Part shown: one piece after another, positions 2,876 through 53,342 of the stretch
How the letters are laid out: each line of letters begins with the position of its first letter
How positions within the stretch are numbered: position 1 is the first letter of the stretch
NCBI GenBank assembly: GCA_945898185.1
Contig: CAMDHP010000005.1
Span: 1 to 53,615, forward strand
DNA length: 53,615 nt
Origin: Akkermansia muciniphila
GTDB taxonomy: Bacteria; Verrucomicrobiota; Verrucomicrobiia; Opitutales; Opitutaceae
Direction of reading: 5' to 3'
Notes under the pieces: generated by a model
Database searches by the model: none
Seen by the model: only the letters and a program-made list of their open reading frames with translations
What the model was told of the DNA's origin: nothing
Made by a program: the position numbers and the translations under genes

Positions 2876-3841
2876 ATGTCGCTCCCTTGGCATCCTTGGC
2901 AACCCGTTCCACCGCTCCCTCACGCCGTAGCCTTCACCCCGTCGTCGCTTGGTGAGCTGCTTGATGGCGGCCAAGCCTTCCGCTGGACCGCCTTGCCCGA
3001 ATCCGCCTTCGAGGGCCAATGGTCCGAACACCATGTCCGGGTCCGCCTCGTGCCCAACGCGAGCAGCACCCTGGAGTTTGCCGCCCCGCTCCACGCCGAT
3101 CCCGCAGCCACCGCCGCCGCTCTCCACTTCTACCTGAGCGGACCGCCCGCCGCGCCCGACGCCCTTCCCTGGCGCAGCGATGCCCACCTCGCCGCCGCCA
3201 TGGCCGCCTTCCCCGGCCTGCGCATCCTCCGCCAACCCTTTGGTGAAACTCTCCTCGGGTTCGTTTGCAGCGCCACAAAACAAATCCCCCAAATCAAACA
3301 GATGCAGGCCCTTCTCGCCGCCCGCCACGGCCGCGCCCTCAACCCCGTCCCCTCCGCCCCTCGAGCATCCAACCGTCCTTCCCAAACAACTAGTCAATCA
3401 TTGATTGACAATATTGTTTTTCATCAACTCCCCACCTGGACCGAGCTCGCCGCCGTGTCCGAAAGCGAATTACGCGCCTGCTCGCTCGGTTTCCGCGCCC
3501 GCCACGTCGCCTCCATCGCTCGCTTCCTCGCCGAAAACCCCGGCTGGCTTGAAGCCACCGAGCACGCCCCCTACCCCGAGGCCAAAGCCCGCCTCATCAC
3601 CCTTCAGGGCGTCGGTGAAAAAGTCGCCGACTGCGTGCTCCTCTTTGGCGCCGGCCGCCTCGAGGCCTTTCCCGTGGACACCTGGATTTTAAAAGCCCTT
3701 GCACGCCGCTACGATCTCGCCGGCTGGGAACCCGCCCAAGTCGCCCACTTCGGCCGCACCCATTTCGGCCCCCAAGCCGGCCTCGCCCAACAATACCTCT
3801 TCGCCTACGAGCGCGCCGCCGCGCGCGGCAAACTAACCTAA
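2876..3841 (+). CDS. 8-oxoguanine DNA glycosylase, OGG type (HhH-GPD)
   Basis: Base-excision repair glycosylase/lyase that removes oxidised guanine. The 321-residue protein has an N-terminal OGG domain (SLGELLDGGQAFRW, about residues 22-35), GLRILRQPFGETLLGFVCSA in the middle, and a helix-hairpin-helix LQGVGEKVADCVLLFGAG. The HhH lysine is residue 249 and the catalytic aspartate of EAFPVDTW is residue 268; these numbers and their spacing match human OGG1 Lys249 and Asp268. ATG 2876 is chosen because the family alignment begins just after it. Between the N-terminal part and LPTWTELAAV, the usual short loop is lengthened by about 20 residues, including TSQSLIDNIV (172-181), which is encoded by a hairpin element (see repeat at 3384). 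Confidence 0.88.
   Translation: MSLPWHPWQPVPPLPHAVAFTPSSLGELLDGGQAFRWTALPESAFEGQWSEHHVRVRLVPNASSTLEFAAPLHADPAATAAALHFYLSGPPAAPDALPWRSDAHLAAAMAAFPGLRILRQPFGETLLGFVCSATKQIPQIKQMQALLAARHGRALNPVPSAPRASNRPSQTTSQSLIDNIVFHQLPTWTELAAVSESELRACSLGFRARHVASIARFLAENPGWLEATEHAPYPEAKARLITLQGVGEKVADCVLLFGAGRLEAFPVDTWILKALARRYDLAGWEPAQVAHFGRTHFGPQAGLAQQYLFAYERAAARGKLT
3384..3420 (+). repeat. Hairpin element with core GTCAATCATTGATTGAC, inside the OGG gene
   Basis: The core at 3393-3409 is flanked by imperfect arms, AAACAACTA on the left and AATATTGTTT on the right. It is read in the frame AGT CAA TCA TTG ATT GAC, giving SQSLID at residues 173-178. The other two sense frames contain TGA. The left arm is nearly identical to the left arm of the copy at 22543. 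Confidence 0.85.
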
Positions 3842-4145: not shown

Positions 4146-6263
4146 ATGCCTCCGCTCCCCTACACTGCATCCCGTTTCCACACCGTCCGCCGCCGCACCC
4201 GCGAGGTCATGGTAGGCCCCGTCGGCGTCGGCGGCACGAATCCCCTTCGCGTCCAGTCCATGACCACCAGCGACACCCAGGACATCGCTGCCACCGTGCG
4301 GCAGGCCATCGCCCTCGCCGAGGTCGGCTGCGAGATCGTCCGCATCACCGCTCCCAACGTCCAAGCCGCCCGCTGCCTCAAGCCCATCCGCGAGCAATTT
4401 GCCGCCGCCGGCTTTGGCCATATACCGATTATCGCCGATATCCATTTCCTGCCCTCCGCAGCCATGGAGGCCGTGGAGCACGTCGAGAAGATCCGGATCA
4501 ACCCGGGCAACTACGCCGACAAAAAGAAATTCGCGGTCACCGAATACACCGACGCCGCCTACAACGCGGAGCTTGCCCGTATCCACGAGGCCGTGACGCC
4601 GCTTATTCTTCGTTGCAAAGCCCTCGGCCGCAGCGTGCGCATCGGCACCAACCACGGCTCGCTCAGCGACCGCATCATGAACCGCTACGGCGACACTCCT
4701 CTCGGCATGGTGGAGAGCGCCCTCGAGTTCCTCCGAATCTGCCGCGGCCATGGATTTAACGATATCATCCTTTCGATGAAGGCCTCCAACCCCAAGGTCA
4801 TGATCCAGGCCTACCGCCTGCTCGTCGCCCGCATGGACCAGGAGCAGATGGACTATCCCCTCCACCTCGGCGTCACCGAGGCCGGCGACGGCGAGGATGG
4901 CCGCATCAAGTCCGCCATCGGCATCGGCTCCCTGCTCGCCGACGGCCTCGGCGATACCATCCGCGTCTCCCTCACCGAAGACAGCGTTTACGAAATCCCA
5001 GTCGCACAAGCCCTGGCCCGCAAAGCCATGGCTCTTTGGCAGCAACCTACCAATCCATTTTGTCAATCAATGATAGACAAAGTGCAGAAAGAGAACGTCG
5101 TTGAGCGCACCGACTCTATTGATCCGTTTGTTTACGCCAAACGTTCCGTTAACTCGCTCACCATCTCCCCTGATTTCGCCATCGGTCCCGAACTCCCTTC
5201 CCGCGTCGTCACCCGCGTCGCGTCCGTTGCCGCGCTTGCCGAGGCCGCTCAGAAGTTCGCCGCCACCCGCCTCACCGATACCCCGGTTGAAGGACTGCTC
5301 GTCCCCATCGACAACGCCGCCGACCTCGCCGCGCTCAAATCCGCAGCCTTCCCTGCCGGTTCGGTTCCCTTTCTCGATCTCGCCGCCGCGCTGACACCCG
5401 CCGACCTCGCCAGCCTAAATAGCAGTGCGCCCGTTGTGCTGGTGCGAACCTTCGGCTCCTCCCACGTCGACGCCGACGCCCTCGCTGGCTTCGCGAAACT
5501 CGCCCGCGCCAGCGGACACACTCTCGCCCTCGCCACCACGGTCGAGGCGCTCTCCGCGCCCGCCTCACCACTCGCCGCCACCCTTCGTCAACTCGGCGAA
5601 GCGTCGCTTCTCATCACCCTCGACGACGCCGTCCCGGACCCCGCCTTCCGCCACGAGATCGGCCGCTATCGCGCCCTCGCCGATGCCCTCGGCGCCCTCG
5701 GTATCCACGCTCCCCTCTGGATCCGCAGCACCCAATCCGTGCATTCGAGACCGGGCATTCGCCATTGGTCATTATCCGGCACGGCGCCCGCGCCGGATTT
5801 CCTCTCCAGACTGCTCGACGCCTCAGTCCTTTCCGGAGCCTTGCTCTGCGACGGCCTCGGAGACCTCGTGAGCATCGAGACCGAACCCGACCCCGTGCGC
5901 GCGCTCAAGCTCACCTACAACGTCCTTCAAGGCGCCGGCACACGCAGCAGCAAGACGGAGTTCGTCGCCTGCCCGAGCTGCGGCCGCACGCTCTTCGACC
6001 TGCAAACCACGACGCAAAGAATCCGCGCCCGCACCGGACATCTCAAGGGCGTGAAAATCGCCATCATGGGTTGTATCGTGAATGGACCCGGAGAGATGGC
6101 CGACGCCGATTTCGGCTACGTCGGCGGCGCCCCAGCAAAAATCAATCTCTACGTCGGCAAACAGTGCGTTCAATACAACCTTCCCCAAGCCGAAGCCGAC
6201 GAGCACCTCGTCGCCCTCATCAAAGCCCACGGCAAATGGGTCGAGCCGCCGGTCGGCGCGTGA
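4146..6263 (+). CDS. ispG: 4-hydroxy-3-methylbut-2-enyl diphosphate synthase, long form
   Basis: Iron-sulfur enzyme of the MEP isoprenoid pathway that converts MEcPP to HMBPP. The TIM-barrel part starts at about residue 10 (TREVMVGPVGVGGTNPLRVQSMTTSDT). The C-terminal cluster domain carries CPSCGRTLFDLQ and GCIVNGPGEMADADFGYVGG, giving the three cluster cysteines. At 705 residues it is the long type with a central insert domain, as known from plants, Chlamydiae and Bacteroidetes, rather than the roughly 370-residue E. coli type. ATG 4146 fits the family start. Two odd segments lie in variable regions: CQSMIDK (residues 306-312), encoded by a hairpin element, and HSRPGIRHWSLSG, encoded by a heptamer-like repeat at 5742. 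Confidence 0.95.
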   Translation: MPPLPYTASRFHTVRRRTREVMVGPVGVGGTNPLRVQSMTTSDTQDIAATVRQAIALAEVGCEIVRITAPNVQAARCLKPIREQFAAAGFGHIPIIADIHFLPSAAMEAVEHVEKIRINPGNYADKKKFAVTEYTDAAYNAELARIHEAVTPLILRCKALGRSVRIGTNHGSLSDRIMNRYGDTPLGMVESALEFLRICRGHGFNDIILSMKASNPKVMIQAYRLLVARMDQEQMDYPLHLGVTEAGDGEDGRIKSAIGIGSLLADGLGDTIRVSLTEDSVYEIPVAQALARKAMALWQQPTNPFCQSMIDKVQKENVVERTDSIDPFVYAKRSVNSLTISPDFAIGPELPSRVVTRVASVAALAEAAQKFAATRLTDTPVEGLLVPIDNAADLAALKSAAFPAGSVPFLDLAAALTPADLASLNSSAPVVLVRTFGSSHVDADALAGFAKLARASGHTLALATTVEALSAPASPLAATLRQLGEASLLITLDDAVPDPAFRHEIGRYRALADALGALGIHAPLWIRSTQSVHSRPGIRHWSLSGTAPAPDFLSRLLDASVLSGALLCDGLGDLVSIETEPDPVRALKLTYNVLQGAGTRSSKTEFVACPSCGRTLFDLQTTTQRIRARTGHLKGVKIAIMGCIVNGPGEMADADFGYVGGAPAKINLYVGKQCVQYNLPQAEADEHLVALIKAHGKWVEPPVGA
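5055..5085 (-). repeat. Hairpin element inside ispG
   Basis: The sense-strand core GTCAATCAATGATAGAC at 5062-5078 is identical to the sense core in the epimerase gene at 52539-52555. Read on the other strand it fits GTC-TATCATTGATT-GAC. The arms are short and imperfect (CCATTTT against AAAGTGC). It encodes CQSMIDK in the linker between the barrel and the insert domain. Confidence 0.8.
5742..5776 (+). repeat. Degenerate heptamer repeat inside ispG
   Basis: Five consecutive 7-base units, CATTCGA GACCGGG CATTCGC CATTGGT CATTATC, resemble the TCATTCS array at 2781 and the fragment at 2349. The 35 bases are in frame and encode HSRPGIRHWSLS within the insert domain of IspG. Confidence 0.5.
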
Positions 6264-20941: not shown

Positions 20942-21039
20942 AAAAGTGCATCGAAGTGGGTGAGCGAACGAGCAGATGCCCGGTAGATTGTATCAGATCG
21001 CGGCGTCCAACTCAGGAGTTCGGACTAATCGGTTAAAGC
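20942..21039. repeat. 98-bp dispersed repeat, copy A
   Basis: Nearly identical to copy B at 28762-28851: both contain AGTGCATCGA, GGTGAGCGAACGAG, ATGCCC, GTAGATTG and CGCGGCGTCCAACTCA. Both copies sit at the 3' end of a minus-strand gene in the same orientation. Here the repeat overlaps the end of the PEP-CTERM gene and supplies its last residues and stop. Confidence 0.85.
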
Positions 21040-22118: not shown

Positions 22119-22520
22119 TCAGCTCTTCACCTTCGCGGATGCCTTCACCTTCGGCGCGGCTTCGGCTTCGGCGAGCGCCAGCCAGACGATCAGCCGCAGC
22201 ACCCGTTCCGCATCCGGCGCGGCCGTGCGGGTCGTGAAGTAGGCGTAAATCTGCTGCCGCGATACCCCGAGCTCCCGCCCAAGTTTCGCCTGTGCGCCGC
22301 GTTGCGCCAGCAAAGGTGCCATCCGCGCCGTCAGCGCCCGCCACAGCGCGCCATCCGCTGCGTGGCTGGCGCTCCGCCCGCGGCCACGCTTCGCCTTAGC
22401 TGAGCCTTTGGCCTTGGCCGCCGCGATCTCCCGCGAGGCCGCGATCAACGACTCGACAATCCCGCCCACTATCGCGGGCAAAATTCCATCACTGCCCATT
22501 TTAAACGGAGGTATAGACAT
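22119..22520 (-). CDS. Small helix-turn-helix protein
   Basis: A 133-residue protein. The N-terminal part (MSIPPFKMGSDGILPAIVGGIVESLIAASREIAAAK) is helical, followed by a Lys/Arg/Gly stretch (KGSAKAKRGRGRS). An HTH at about 82-103 reads LGRELGVSRQQIYAYFTTRTA, resembling the XRE-type LA-x-x-LGVS-x-x-x-IS-x-x pattern. The C-terminus is Lys/Ala-rich. ATG 22520 is preferred, with AAGG at 22526-22529 as ribosome binding site; an upstream TTG at 22559 would put the start inside the palindrome at 22543. It follows the broken araC gene on the same strand. Probably a DNA-binding regulator; target unknown. Confidence 0.65.
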   Translation of the reverse strand: MSIPPFKMGSDGILPAIVGGIVESLIAASREIAAAKAKGSAKAKRGRGRSASHAADGALWRALTARMAPLLAQRGAQAKLGRELGVSRQQIYAYFTTRTAAPDAERVLRLIVWLALAEAEAAPKVKASAKVKS

Positions 22521-22542
22521 CGTGCCTTGGATAAAAAACTCT

Positions 22543-22583
22543 CCAAGGCAACTAGTCAATCATTGATTGACTAGTTGCCTTGG
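22543..22583. repeat. Perfect 41-bp palindrome, intergenic copy of the hairpin element
   Basis: Arms of 15 bp, CCAAGGCAACTAGTC and GACTAGTTGCCTTGG, flank the 11-base centre AATCATTGATT, whose five outer bases also pair. A further TGCCTTGG at 22523-22530 can pair with the same left arm, so two mutually exclusive hairpins are possible in the leader of the HTH gene. The core is shared with copies at 3384, 5055 and 52529. Confidence 0.9.
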
Positions 22584-22634: not shown

Positions 22635-23595
22635 TCAGCCTCGGCGGGCCTCGGGCTTTGCCTGCACCACGTAGCCCAGCTCCTCCTCCGGCGGACCGTT
22701 GCCCCCGCCCGCTCGCGCGCGCCGCCACGCAAACGGCGTCAACCCCGTGCGCGCCCGAAACACCCGGATAAAATACGAGGGCTGCGCAAACCCGCAGGCC
22801 CACGCCACCTCCGCCACTTGGTATTTACCTTCCTGCAAGAGCCGCTGCGCCAGAGCCACCCGCTCGCCCGTCACCCACGCGACCGCCGTGCCCCCCGTCT
22901 CGGCGCGGAAACGACGCGCCAGATGATCCGGCGAACACCCCGCCGTCCGCGCCAGGCACTGCACCGACAGCCGCAAATCCGCCAAATGCGAACGCGCCAC
23001 CGCCCGCGCCGACTCCACCACCGGCGAATACACCTGGCTACACGGCTCCGCCCGTCGCGCCTCCTCCGCCAGCACTCTCAAAAACACCCGCGTGAGATCC
23101 ACCGCCGGCTCCCTCCCTTCCACGCCTTCCGCCCACGCCTGCTCCACTTCGTCAAGATAGCGAAAGGCCTCCCGCCCTCGCACGCTTGCCACCGGCAACA
23201 CCACGAGGGGCGCGATCTCCCTGCCGCCCGCCCGCCGCCCCATTATCCACCGGTGCGTGCGCCTGAATGAGCGTGAAACCCGTCCGCCCGCAACACGCCA
23301 CTACCTTCCCGTAAGGCGTCGCCCGATCCAGCGGCGTCTCCGCATGGGGCACCCCGCGCGGCACCAGGCCCAGCTCGCCCGCGGCCAGCTCCCACCGTTG
23401 CTCCGGCCCCTCAAAACGCGTCGCTCCGCCCGTCTGAATAATAAACCCCGGCGTCGGATGAAAATGCCCTCTCGGCCAACGCCGGTTCAAGCCCACCGAG
23501 CGCGCCCGCCGCAAACTCTCCGGCTCCGCATTCAAACTCCTCAACGCCGCCTCCAGCACCCCCACCACTTCTTCTCGGGCCGCGTCGATGCTCAT
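22635..23595 (-). pseudogene. AraC-family regulator, split by a frameshift
   Basis: Two minus-strand frames together encode one AraC regulator. Residues from the start at 23595 give an N-terminal cupin sensor domain (GHFHPTPGFIIQTGGATRFEG, then GELGLVPRGVPHAETP) that continues to about 23225 and then goes out of frame. The second frame, from about 23243 to 22635, continues with GGREIAPLVVLPVASVRGREAF and ends in a complete AraC DNA-binding domain (LARTAGCSPDHLARRFRAETGG; VAEVAWACGFAQPSYFIRVFRARTGLTPFAWRR). The switch falls in a G/C-only run around 23222-23241, so it may be a true frameshift or a sequencing error. The gene is divergent from thuA, 137 bp apart, which suggests it regulates that sugar cluster. 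Confidence 0.8.
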
Positions 23596-28761: not shown

Positions 28762-28851
28762 AAAAGTGCATCGAGGTGGGTGAGCGAACGAGTGAATGCC
28801 CAGTAGATTGCATCAAATCGCGGCGTCCAACTCATGAGTTCGCGGGTTAAG
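28762..28851. repeat. Dispersed repeat, copy B
   Basis: Matches copy A at 20942 over its whole length, with about 10 substitutions and a 9-base indel near one end. Here it ends at the stop codon of prmA (TAA at 28847-28849, minus strand), so the repeat starts within a few bases of the gene end. Confidence 0.85.
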
Positions 28852-52089: not shown

Positions 52090-53342
52090 GGGCGTGGCTT
52101 GGCGGCGGAGCGCGACTTCAGGGCGGCGATAAGTTCCGCGGTCCCGGTAGCCATGCTGATGCGCGGCACGTAGCCCAGATCGCGCTGGGCGGCGGTGATG
52201 TTGAACCAGTGATCCTTGGCGAGCTCGGCGGCGATGAAGCGCGTCATGGGCGGCTCATCGGCACGGCGGAGGATTGCCCAAGTCGCTTCGCAGACGGCGC
52301 CGAGCGCGCAGGCGGCGCCAGAGGGCACGCGGAAGGACGGAAGTGGCGGGCGATCGAGCGCGCGCAAGAGATCATCAATCCATTGCCAGAGGCTGATGGG
52401 TTCACCGTTGGTGATGAAGTAGGCGCGACCAGCGGCGGGGCCGGCAGCTTGATCTGCACCGCCACCAACAGCTTGTTCGGCAGCCCCACTTGTAGCCCCA
52501 CTTGTAGCCCCACCTGCAGCCGAACCAACCAAGCTCTTGTCTATCATTGATTGACAAGAGCTTGGGGCGACAATTTCCGAAGAAGTGTCCATCGTGGATA
52601 GACTGGTTGTATTGATGGATGAGGGCAGGAGGGGCAGAAGAGCCTGTTCGGCGAGGAGGTGGGCGTCGGCGGCGTTTTCGACGTGGACCATATCCACCAG
52701 ATTTTGCCCCCCGCCAACGATACGCAGGCGGCCGGCAGCGGCACGCGCGAGGATGCGCGGCACCAGATGCGGATCGCCGACGCCCCAGATAAGATGCGGG
52801 CGCAGCGCGCATGTGGCGAAGCCTGGGACGTTGGCAGCAAGCACCTCCCGCTCGGCGAGTGCCTTCGTGAGCGGATACGGACTAGGGCACGAGGCCGTGA
52901 GCGGCAGCGATTCATCGGCGCCCGAAAGCGGCAGGCCGTTGTAAACCACGCTCGGAGTGCTGGTGTAAACAAAGCGCCTCACGCCAGCGGCACGGGCAGC
53001 AGCAAGAAGGGTGCGGGTAGCGGCGACGTTATCCTGAAAAAAATCAGTGTATCGCCCCCACACACCCACGCGGGCGGCGACGTGAAAAACCGTTTCAACG
53101 CCACGCACCGCCTCGGCGCAGGTGGCGGGGTCAGCGAGCGAGCCGACGACGATGCGCAAGCCCCGCGCGGCTAGGGCGGGTTGGGGCGTGCGGGACACAA
53201 CGGTCACGGTTCGGCCAGCGGCCAGCAAACGAGTAAGGATATGGCCGCCAAGGAATCCGGTAGCGCCGGTGACCAAAGCCGGGCCTCGATCACTGGTGTG
53301 CCGAGCCGCGGAGTCGGAGGCTGCCTTCAGGATTTGGTTCAT
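52086..53342 (-). CDS. NAD-dependent epimerase/3-beta-HSD-like protein with repeat insert
   Basis: 418-residue extended SDR. GPALVTGATGFLGGHILTRLLAAGRTVT near 21 is the NAD-binding motif. YTSTPSVVYNG and SPYPLTKALAERE near 130-160 carry the Tyr-x3-Lys pair. DMVHVENAADAHLLAEQALLPLL near 213 is normally followed closely by GRAYFITNGEPISLW. Here about 65 residues are inserted between them, including CQSMIDK (from a hairpin element) and an Ala/Gly/Ser/Thr-rich run from a 12-bp tandem repeat. The rest of the fold is complete. Probably a sterol- or sugar-modifying SDR. Confidence 0.88.
   Translation of the reverse strand: MNQILKAASDSAARHTSDRGPALVTGATGFLGGHILTRLLAAGRTVTVVSRTPQPALAARGLRIVVGSLADPATCAEAVRGVETVFHVAARVGVWGRYTDFFQDNVAATRTLLAAARAAGVRRFVYTSTPSVVYNGLPLSGADESLPLTASCPSPYPLTKALAEREVLAANVPGFATCALRPHLIWGVGDPHLVPRILARAAAGRLRIVGGGQNLVDMVHVENAADAHLLAEQALLPLLPSSINTTSLSTMDTSSEIVAPSSCQSMIDKSLVGSAAGGATSGATSGAAEQAVGGGADQAAGPAAGRAYFITNGEPISLWQWIDDLLRALDRPPLPSFRVPSGAACALGAVCEATWAILRRADEPPMTRFIAAELAKDHWFNITAAQRDLGYVPRISMATGTAELIAALKSRSAAKPRP
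52481..52516. repeat. 12-bp tandem repeat inside the epimerase gene
   Basis: Three units, CAGCCCCACTTG, TAGCCCCACTTG and TAGCCCCACCTG, are read on the minus strand as AGGATSGATSGA-type peptide. They lie 13 bp from the hairpin element at 52529 and within the same protein insert. Confidence 0.85.
52529..52565 (+). repeat. Hairpin element inside the epimerase gene
   Basis: Perfect 13-bp arms CCAAGCTCTTGTC and GACAAGAGCTTGG enclose the 11-base loop TATCATTGATT. On the gene strand the core GTCAATCAATGATAGAC is identical to the ispG copy and is read as CQSMIDK. The other two sense frames contain a stop codon. Confidence 0.9.

Follow-up and report, generated by a model that had tools for sequence, protein, structure and literature searches.

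A perfect palindrome upstream of a helix-turn-helix gene points to a paired repeat/recogniser system in Opitutaceae

The palindrome and its neighbouring genes

The DNA analysed here (a stretch of 53,615 nucleotides, referred to below as the window) belongs to G000, a 2.26-Mb draft genome in 132 contigs and a congener of Verrucomicrobia bacterium IMCC26134; the records of its relatives are mostly labelled Opitutaceae. A perfect palindrome lies between two co-directional genes, an AraC-type gene (22635-23243, minus strand) on one side and the gene of a small helix-turn-helix (HTH) protein on the other. It is located upstream of the latter, its edge being 22 nt from the gene start. The elements of this region are as follows:

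22119-22520, minus strand: ORF of the HTH gene, 133 aa, with a predicted Cro/CI (lambda-repressor-like) DNA-binding domain and an N-terminal helix
22523-22531, minus strand: 'third arm' TGCCTTGGA, covering, on the mRNA strand, the Shine-Dalgarno-like AAGG
22543-22583, no strand assigned: perfect 41-bp palindrome found by the repeat search, belonging to a dispersed palindromic repeat
22555-22571, no strand assigned: 17-bp core GTCAATCA-T-TGATTGAC, near-invariant in all copies, the predicted binding site of the HTH protein

The 133-aa protein yielded Pfam HTH matches that were all below the curated cut-offs, and none of the curated protein families matched it above cut-off. In its AlphaFold2 model an N-terminal helix precedes an HTH domain of five helices; the helices of the model include H58-71, H76-84, H88-95 and H104-121. 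The best Foldseek matches of this model were mostly repressor-type HTH domains, none of them with E<=0.001, while a sequence search of solved structures gave weak homeodomain matches only and was uninformative. No catalytic domain could be recognised in the protein.

The palindrome is perfect over its 41 bp, as the first-pass annotation had stated: its arms of 20 nt each (22543-22562 and 22564-22583) are 100% complementary and are separated by a single nucleotide, T22563. The core, searched as GTCAATCAWTGATTGAC with up to 3 mismatches, was found 4 times in the whole window (0.06 expected; no shuffle got to 4). The remaining copies are:

3393-3409, no strand assigned: exact core copy with short arms, within an ogg-like DNA glycosylase gene
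5062-5078, no strand assigned: core copy with 1 mismatch, in frame within ispG
52529-52565 (core 52539-52555), no strand assigned: 37-bp copy with arms of 18 and one mismatch, within a 418-aa 3-beta-HSD/epimerase-like ORF, an assignment taken from the G165 homologue

As these three copies sit in ORFs, the palindrome in front of the HTH gene is the only intergenic one in the window. The earlier description of it as the only intergenic and the most perfect copy holds at this scale but not genome-wide, where others are equally perfect or intergenic. The ogg-like gene has an insertion of ~69 nt at the core copy in comparison with its G118 homologue, and the ispG insert of the window is missing from G203, G118, G098 and G044. 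In ispG of G165 (L204, G165:C238) the position of the window's palindrome is occupied by another insert, made up in part of short repeats of the AAATCCTAAATCC type; it looks as if insertions were perhaps attracted to this loop. The epimerase-like gene has one palindrome in G000 (52547) and two, 48 bp apart, in G165 (L028, G165:C171, 1509 and 1557). The window also contains an 81-nt direct repeat, 90% identical (20942-21022 and 28762-28842), which is unrelated to the palindrome family, and a 14-nt tandem repeat of the GTCATTCGTCATTCC type (2780-2842).

The first-pass annotation had further proposed that a third arm overlaps the likely ribosome binding site and can pair with a palindrome arm, which would make two mutually exclusive structures in the manner of an attenuator. 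On this reading, alternative RNA hairpins in the leader would switch expression of the HTH gene. The third arm itself was confirmed: TGCCTTGG(A) at 22523-22531 is an exact match, giving 9 nt of complementarity across the Shine-Dalgarno region including AAGG, and is situated 3-10 nt upstream of the ATG (22520-22518). In the folded G000 leader the alternative structure, when forced, is only ~3 kcal/mol less stable. However, the 20-bp hairpin dominates the folding, and pairing of the third arm is imperfect in the G165 orthologue and absent in those of G075 and G200, where the palindrome arms are just 8 and 13 nt, so that the long arms are missing in two of the four orthologues. Moreover, no Rfam family matches anywhere in the window. 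The attenuator lacks support, since its third arm is not kept across the orthologues, and was rejected on the basis of folding and orthologue comparison; we regard it as very improbable. What the four orthologues have kept is the 17-bp DNA core, together with its spacing from the gene.

Distribution of the repeat between and within genes

A search with GTCAATCA-W-TGATTGAC, allowing up to 1 mismatch, found 17 copies of this (S-type) core in G000, and 0 with the reversed pattern as a control. Among the 15 genomes of the genus, copies are present in G000 (17), G165 (16), G200 (34) and G075 (7), the last being the only complete genome among the carriers, and in none of the others; among 200 sampled genomes of the family, the S-type core is confined to this genus. 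In an alignment of 76 copies from the four genomes the 17-bp core is nearly invariant and the arms are variable. Likewise, at 14 sets of sites common to several species the core is kept, while the flanks and neighbouring indels diverge. Perfect 38-41-mers recur at unrelated loci, and inverted doublets, i.e. pairs 46-180 bp apart with the opposite centre base, were observed in G075 and G118. The aligned copies bear no consistent GTAG/CGTC tag at the hairpin base.

The arms of the S-type copies pair more often than expected (on average 6.0 of 11 pairs; shuffles <=5.0) and the distribution has two humps, with 17 copies reaching at least 10 pairs, 15 of them intergenic, and intragenic copies having mostly short arms. 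Thirty-four of the 76 copies are located inside predicted genes, so the repeat is not strictly extragenic. It might be argued that ordinary transcription terminators or hairpins at mRNA ends account for the copies, as in many intergenic copies the arms covary in a way that preserves their pairing and some copies lie 35-50 nt past stop codons. Nevertheless, the inspected copies have no T-run, nearly half of the copies are within ORFs, and such a hairpin would not need an invariant symmetric DNA core, which makes this explanation extremely improbable.

Intragenic S-type copies are always read in their one open frame, giving the peptide xQS[M/L]ID with a few substitutions, and their carrier genes have unrelated housekeeping functions (e.g. 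mnmA, tatD, ispG, uvrA). The idea of a single regulon was rejected, since the carrier genes have no common theme. Comparison with palindrome-less homologues revealed in-frame inserts of at least 42 nt in mnmA, an HI0933-like gene, tatD and ispG. The inserts are longer than the palindrome (42-159 nt, variable flanking sequence included), and neither a target-site duplication nor a clean insertion boundary could be defined at the compared loci.

At some positions the palindrome differs in type between genomes. In tatD, the same position carries a GTAACCAA palindrome in G118 and G202, a GTAACCTA palindrome in G204 and none in six other genomes. In-place differences of type were also found in uvrA, in NnrE, which in G000 and G165 has the GTCAATCA type, and in a reductase-like gene, where the palindrome block differs as a unit with its length unchanged and its flanks nearly identical. 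Comparison of S-type with A-type genomes gave just one exact positional coincidence (NnrE) among 20 sampled G118 loci, on which ground a global conservation of site positions was rejected; exchange at shared positions is therefore rare across types, and it is clear between the sisters G118 and G204. Upstream of dus, a palindrome-bracketed HTH cassette is present in G118, G202, G201 and G203 and missing in G204, the sister of G118, both neighbours being common to these two genomes; gene and palindromes are thus there or missing as a unit.

Two further loci deserve mention. In uvrA of G118 (L176, G118:C73:45283-45400) there are three palindromes in a row, where G204 carries only one, of a different type, and other genomes have none. 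At L229/L230 (G204:C118:2583 and 7638) a palindrome common to G118 and G204 has a conserved left flank, and its right flank is found 5 kb off in G204; the palindrome is located at a rearrangement breakpoint.

Pairing of HTH types with palindrome types

The HTH protein has close orthologues (64-82% identity) in precisely those four of the 15 genomes that contain the S-type core. The probability of identical sets of four among 15 independent genomes is 1/1365, a figure weakened by shared ancestry. In all four orthologues the core lies ~30-50 nt upstream of the coding match, and none lacks the palindrome, which is the outcome that the first-pass annotation had named as counting against its reading. 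Its suggestion of an HTH protein that could recognise the core and be tied to the element family is supported by this upstream position, by the restriction of the repeat to genomes with an orthologue and by the family-wide relation, with other cores, described below; binding itself is a prediction.

Distant homologues (30-43% identity) in other members of the genus have other perfect palindromes upstream, often also at the stop codon, namely GTAACCAAWTTGGTTAC, GTAACCTAWTAGGTTAC, GTCACGTAWTACGTGAC and TGTTCGTAWTACGAACA; in the S-type pair of the window, the palindrome flanks the HTH gene upstream only. The prediction that such palindromes should be multicopy was tested for two GTAACC types and held, with 76 copies in G118 and G204, 37 in G202 and 0 in G044, G098 and G151, all three of which lack an HTH homologue in the genus-wide search. 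Over the types counted, a carrier genome has 7-76 copies. Exact copies of the GTAACCAA type (GTAACCAAWTTGGTTAC) number 21 in G118, 23 in G202, 14 in G203, 15 in G179 and 5 in G201, and 0-4 in the other ten genomes. The five genomes with 5-23 copies are those with the matching HTH type, a count of five that includes G179, whose HTH gene has composite flanking palindromes.

An HTH profile search extended this picture to members in 73 of 150 Opitutaceae genomes and 33 of 49 genera, with up to 8 per genome; among named genomes it found 40 loci, almost all of them in records labelled Opitutaceae, Opitutae or Verrucomicrobia. A perfect palindrome lies near the HTH gene in 55 of the 62 distinct loci, often at both gene ends and with a clade-specific core. 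For 45 of these loci, palindrome density is 2.28/kb near the HTH gene versus 0.14/kb elsewhere in the same loci. Similarity of the HTH domains correlates with that of the palindrome half-sites (Mantel rho 0.67, with 0 of 2000 permutations as high, shared ancestry being uncorrected), and a correlation exists for the N-terminal helix as well (rho 0.53). Across 51 loci, the variation of half-site position 5 is fully explained by residue 93, which is part of the predicted recognition helix (88-95). The link between HTH protein and palindrome is strongly supported by these sequence comparisons: the palindrome type follows the HTH type across genomes, and the core sequence correlates with the putative recognition helix.

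A viral origin was rejected, as a scan of viral contigs for the HTH protein found none. The IMG/VR collection contains 8 exact S-core matches, which is estimated to be near chance for its size, and 0 matches to the GTAACC-type core. A tRNA origin was considered for a 55-bp palindrome at locus L042 and dismissed, as there is no tRNA there. One locus labelled Akkermansia muciniphila (L100, CAMCHD010000369.1) has an Opitutaceae-like HTH gene with a dus neighbour, and its label looks wrong.

Comparison with known systems and interpretation

Among known systems, the REP/REPIN repeats, which together with RAYT (TnpA_REP) genes are termed 'REPtrons' (PMC3116915, PMC3733652), are one of the closest. 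The palindromes described here resemble them in being short and dispersed, in flanking a dedicated gene, in forming inverted doublets and in their clade-specific families. On the other hand, the REP partner is an HUH/Y1 transposase and not a Cro/CI-like HTH protein, REPs bear the GTAG/CGTC tag and are extragenic, and the palindromes found here are perfect to the centre, with nearly half of the S-type copies in ORFs.

It is conceivable that the repeats are in fact REPs moved by Y1 tyrosine transposases, with the HTH genes doing no more than using or carrying them. Their size, dispersion and doublets would agree with this, and Y1 transposases are present in 14 of the 15 genus genomes. However, Y1 genes are equally present in the palindrome-less G044, G098 and G151, none was found in G200 (79% complete) despite its 34 copies, no such palindrome occurs near any of the four Y1 loci examined, and the palindrome type goes with the HTH type. 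As the Y1 genes do not track the repeats, we rejected mobilisation by RAYTs, which appears quite improbable. In IMCC26134, a tandem array of three nearly identical Y1 transposase genes spaced 836 bp apart is present (L219, G075:C1:723729-725730).

In-frame palindromic insertions that add a peptide to unrelated housekeeping genes are known from the Rickettsia palindromic elements (RPE), which are ~150 bp long (PMC10969869). Unlike RPE, the elements in question are ~41 bp long and each type is accompanied by the gene of a cognate DNA-binding protein, which the palindrome brackets or precedes. With its intragenic copies, its length of 41 bp, its cognate HTH gene and neither a Y1 link nor a tag, the repeat belongs to neither REP/RAYT nor RPE. 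Phage repressors of the Cro/CI type (XRE) share the HTH fold, predicted here, and a two-fold operator adjoining their gene, but here there are dozens of extra sites across the host chromosome. No description of HTH-linked palindromes was found in the searched literature, whose coverage leaves out most subscription journals.

The main rival explanation is that the palindromes are sites of a DNA-binding protein serving the host in nucleoid organisation, nucleoid occlusion or global regulation, and are kept by selection. In SlmA/SBS, Noc/NBS and MatP/matS, one DNA-binding protein has a limited number of dispersed palindromic sites, and these proteins and sites are conserved within their clades. 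The single protein with dispersed palindromic sites is common to both, and sites both between and within genes would also be expected of a nucleoid protein. The near-invariance of the core at the 14 orthologous site sets, where arms and flanks diverge, could equally reflect a useful host function. However, in the present case presence, core and copy number vary between sister species: the core is missing in 11 of the 15 genus members, and its number (7 to 34) and sequence change fast. Identity extends well beyond the core to perfect palindromes of 38-41 bp, copies are inserted in frame in unrelated housekeeping genes, and one genome has as many as 8 HTH paralogues. The turnover, the 38-41-bp identity and the in-frame inserts fit a repeat system better, and we consider a host-serving protein rather unlikely, although less so than the other alternatives.

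Based on our observations, we suggest that the palindrome upstream of the HTH gene is probably a copy of a dispersed repeat whose 17-bp centre is bound by the adjoining HTH protein, and that it is one of many HTH/palindrome pairs in Opitutaceae. The pairing of types, the position of the palindromes, their dispersion, the in-frame insertions and the in-place differences of type can be read directly from the genomes. That each version of the HTH gene has its own palindrome points to a previously undescribed paired repeat/recogniser system, the best reading of which is a REP/RAYT-like dispersed palindrome with a putative non-catalytic, core-binding HTH partner.

We infer that a dimer of the HTH protein binds the 17-bp core. 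At its own gene, this site would let the protein control its own expression, and at the dispersed copies it may mark or protect the palindromes. Copies matching the resident HTH protein would then spread or persist, and others would decay or be overwritten. As the HTH protein has no recognisable catalytic domain, copying and exchange in this selfish, REP/RAYT-like arrangement would be carried out by host replication or repair enzymes. Template switching is known for quasipalindromes, and the arms may be perfected through it at the core hairpin; gene conversion is a candidate route of palindrome exchange.

More tentatively, and with less confidence than we place in the reading above, we hypothesize that these elements may represent a new class of selfish dispersed repeats, in which a palindrome and a small non-catalytic HTH protein that matches it in specificity evolve together, and matching copies spread and overwrite other types in place, even in frame in essential genes, by host replication and repair alone.

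To our knowledge, the dispersed bacterial palindromes known so far are either linked to a transposase or lack a known partner. Here, roughly half of the genomes sampled from one bacterial family encode members of a whole family of predicted DNA-binding proteins, each accompanied by a repeat that matches it. Such repeats may be readable as a record of the specificity in force. Two processes become testable in this way: the joint change of the specificity of a DNA-binding protein and of its dozens of sites across a genome, and the entry or exchange of 41-bp elements inside essential genes with the frame intact.
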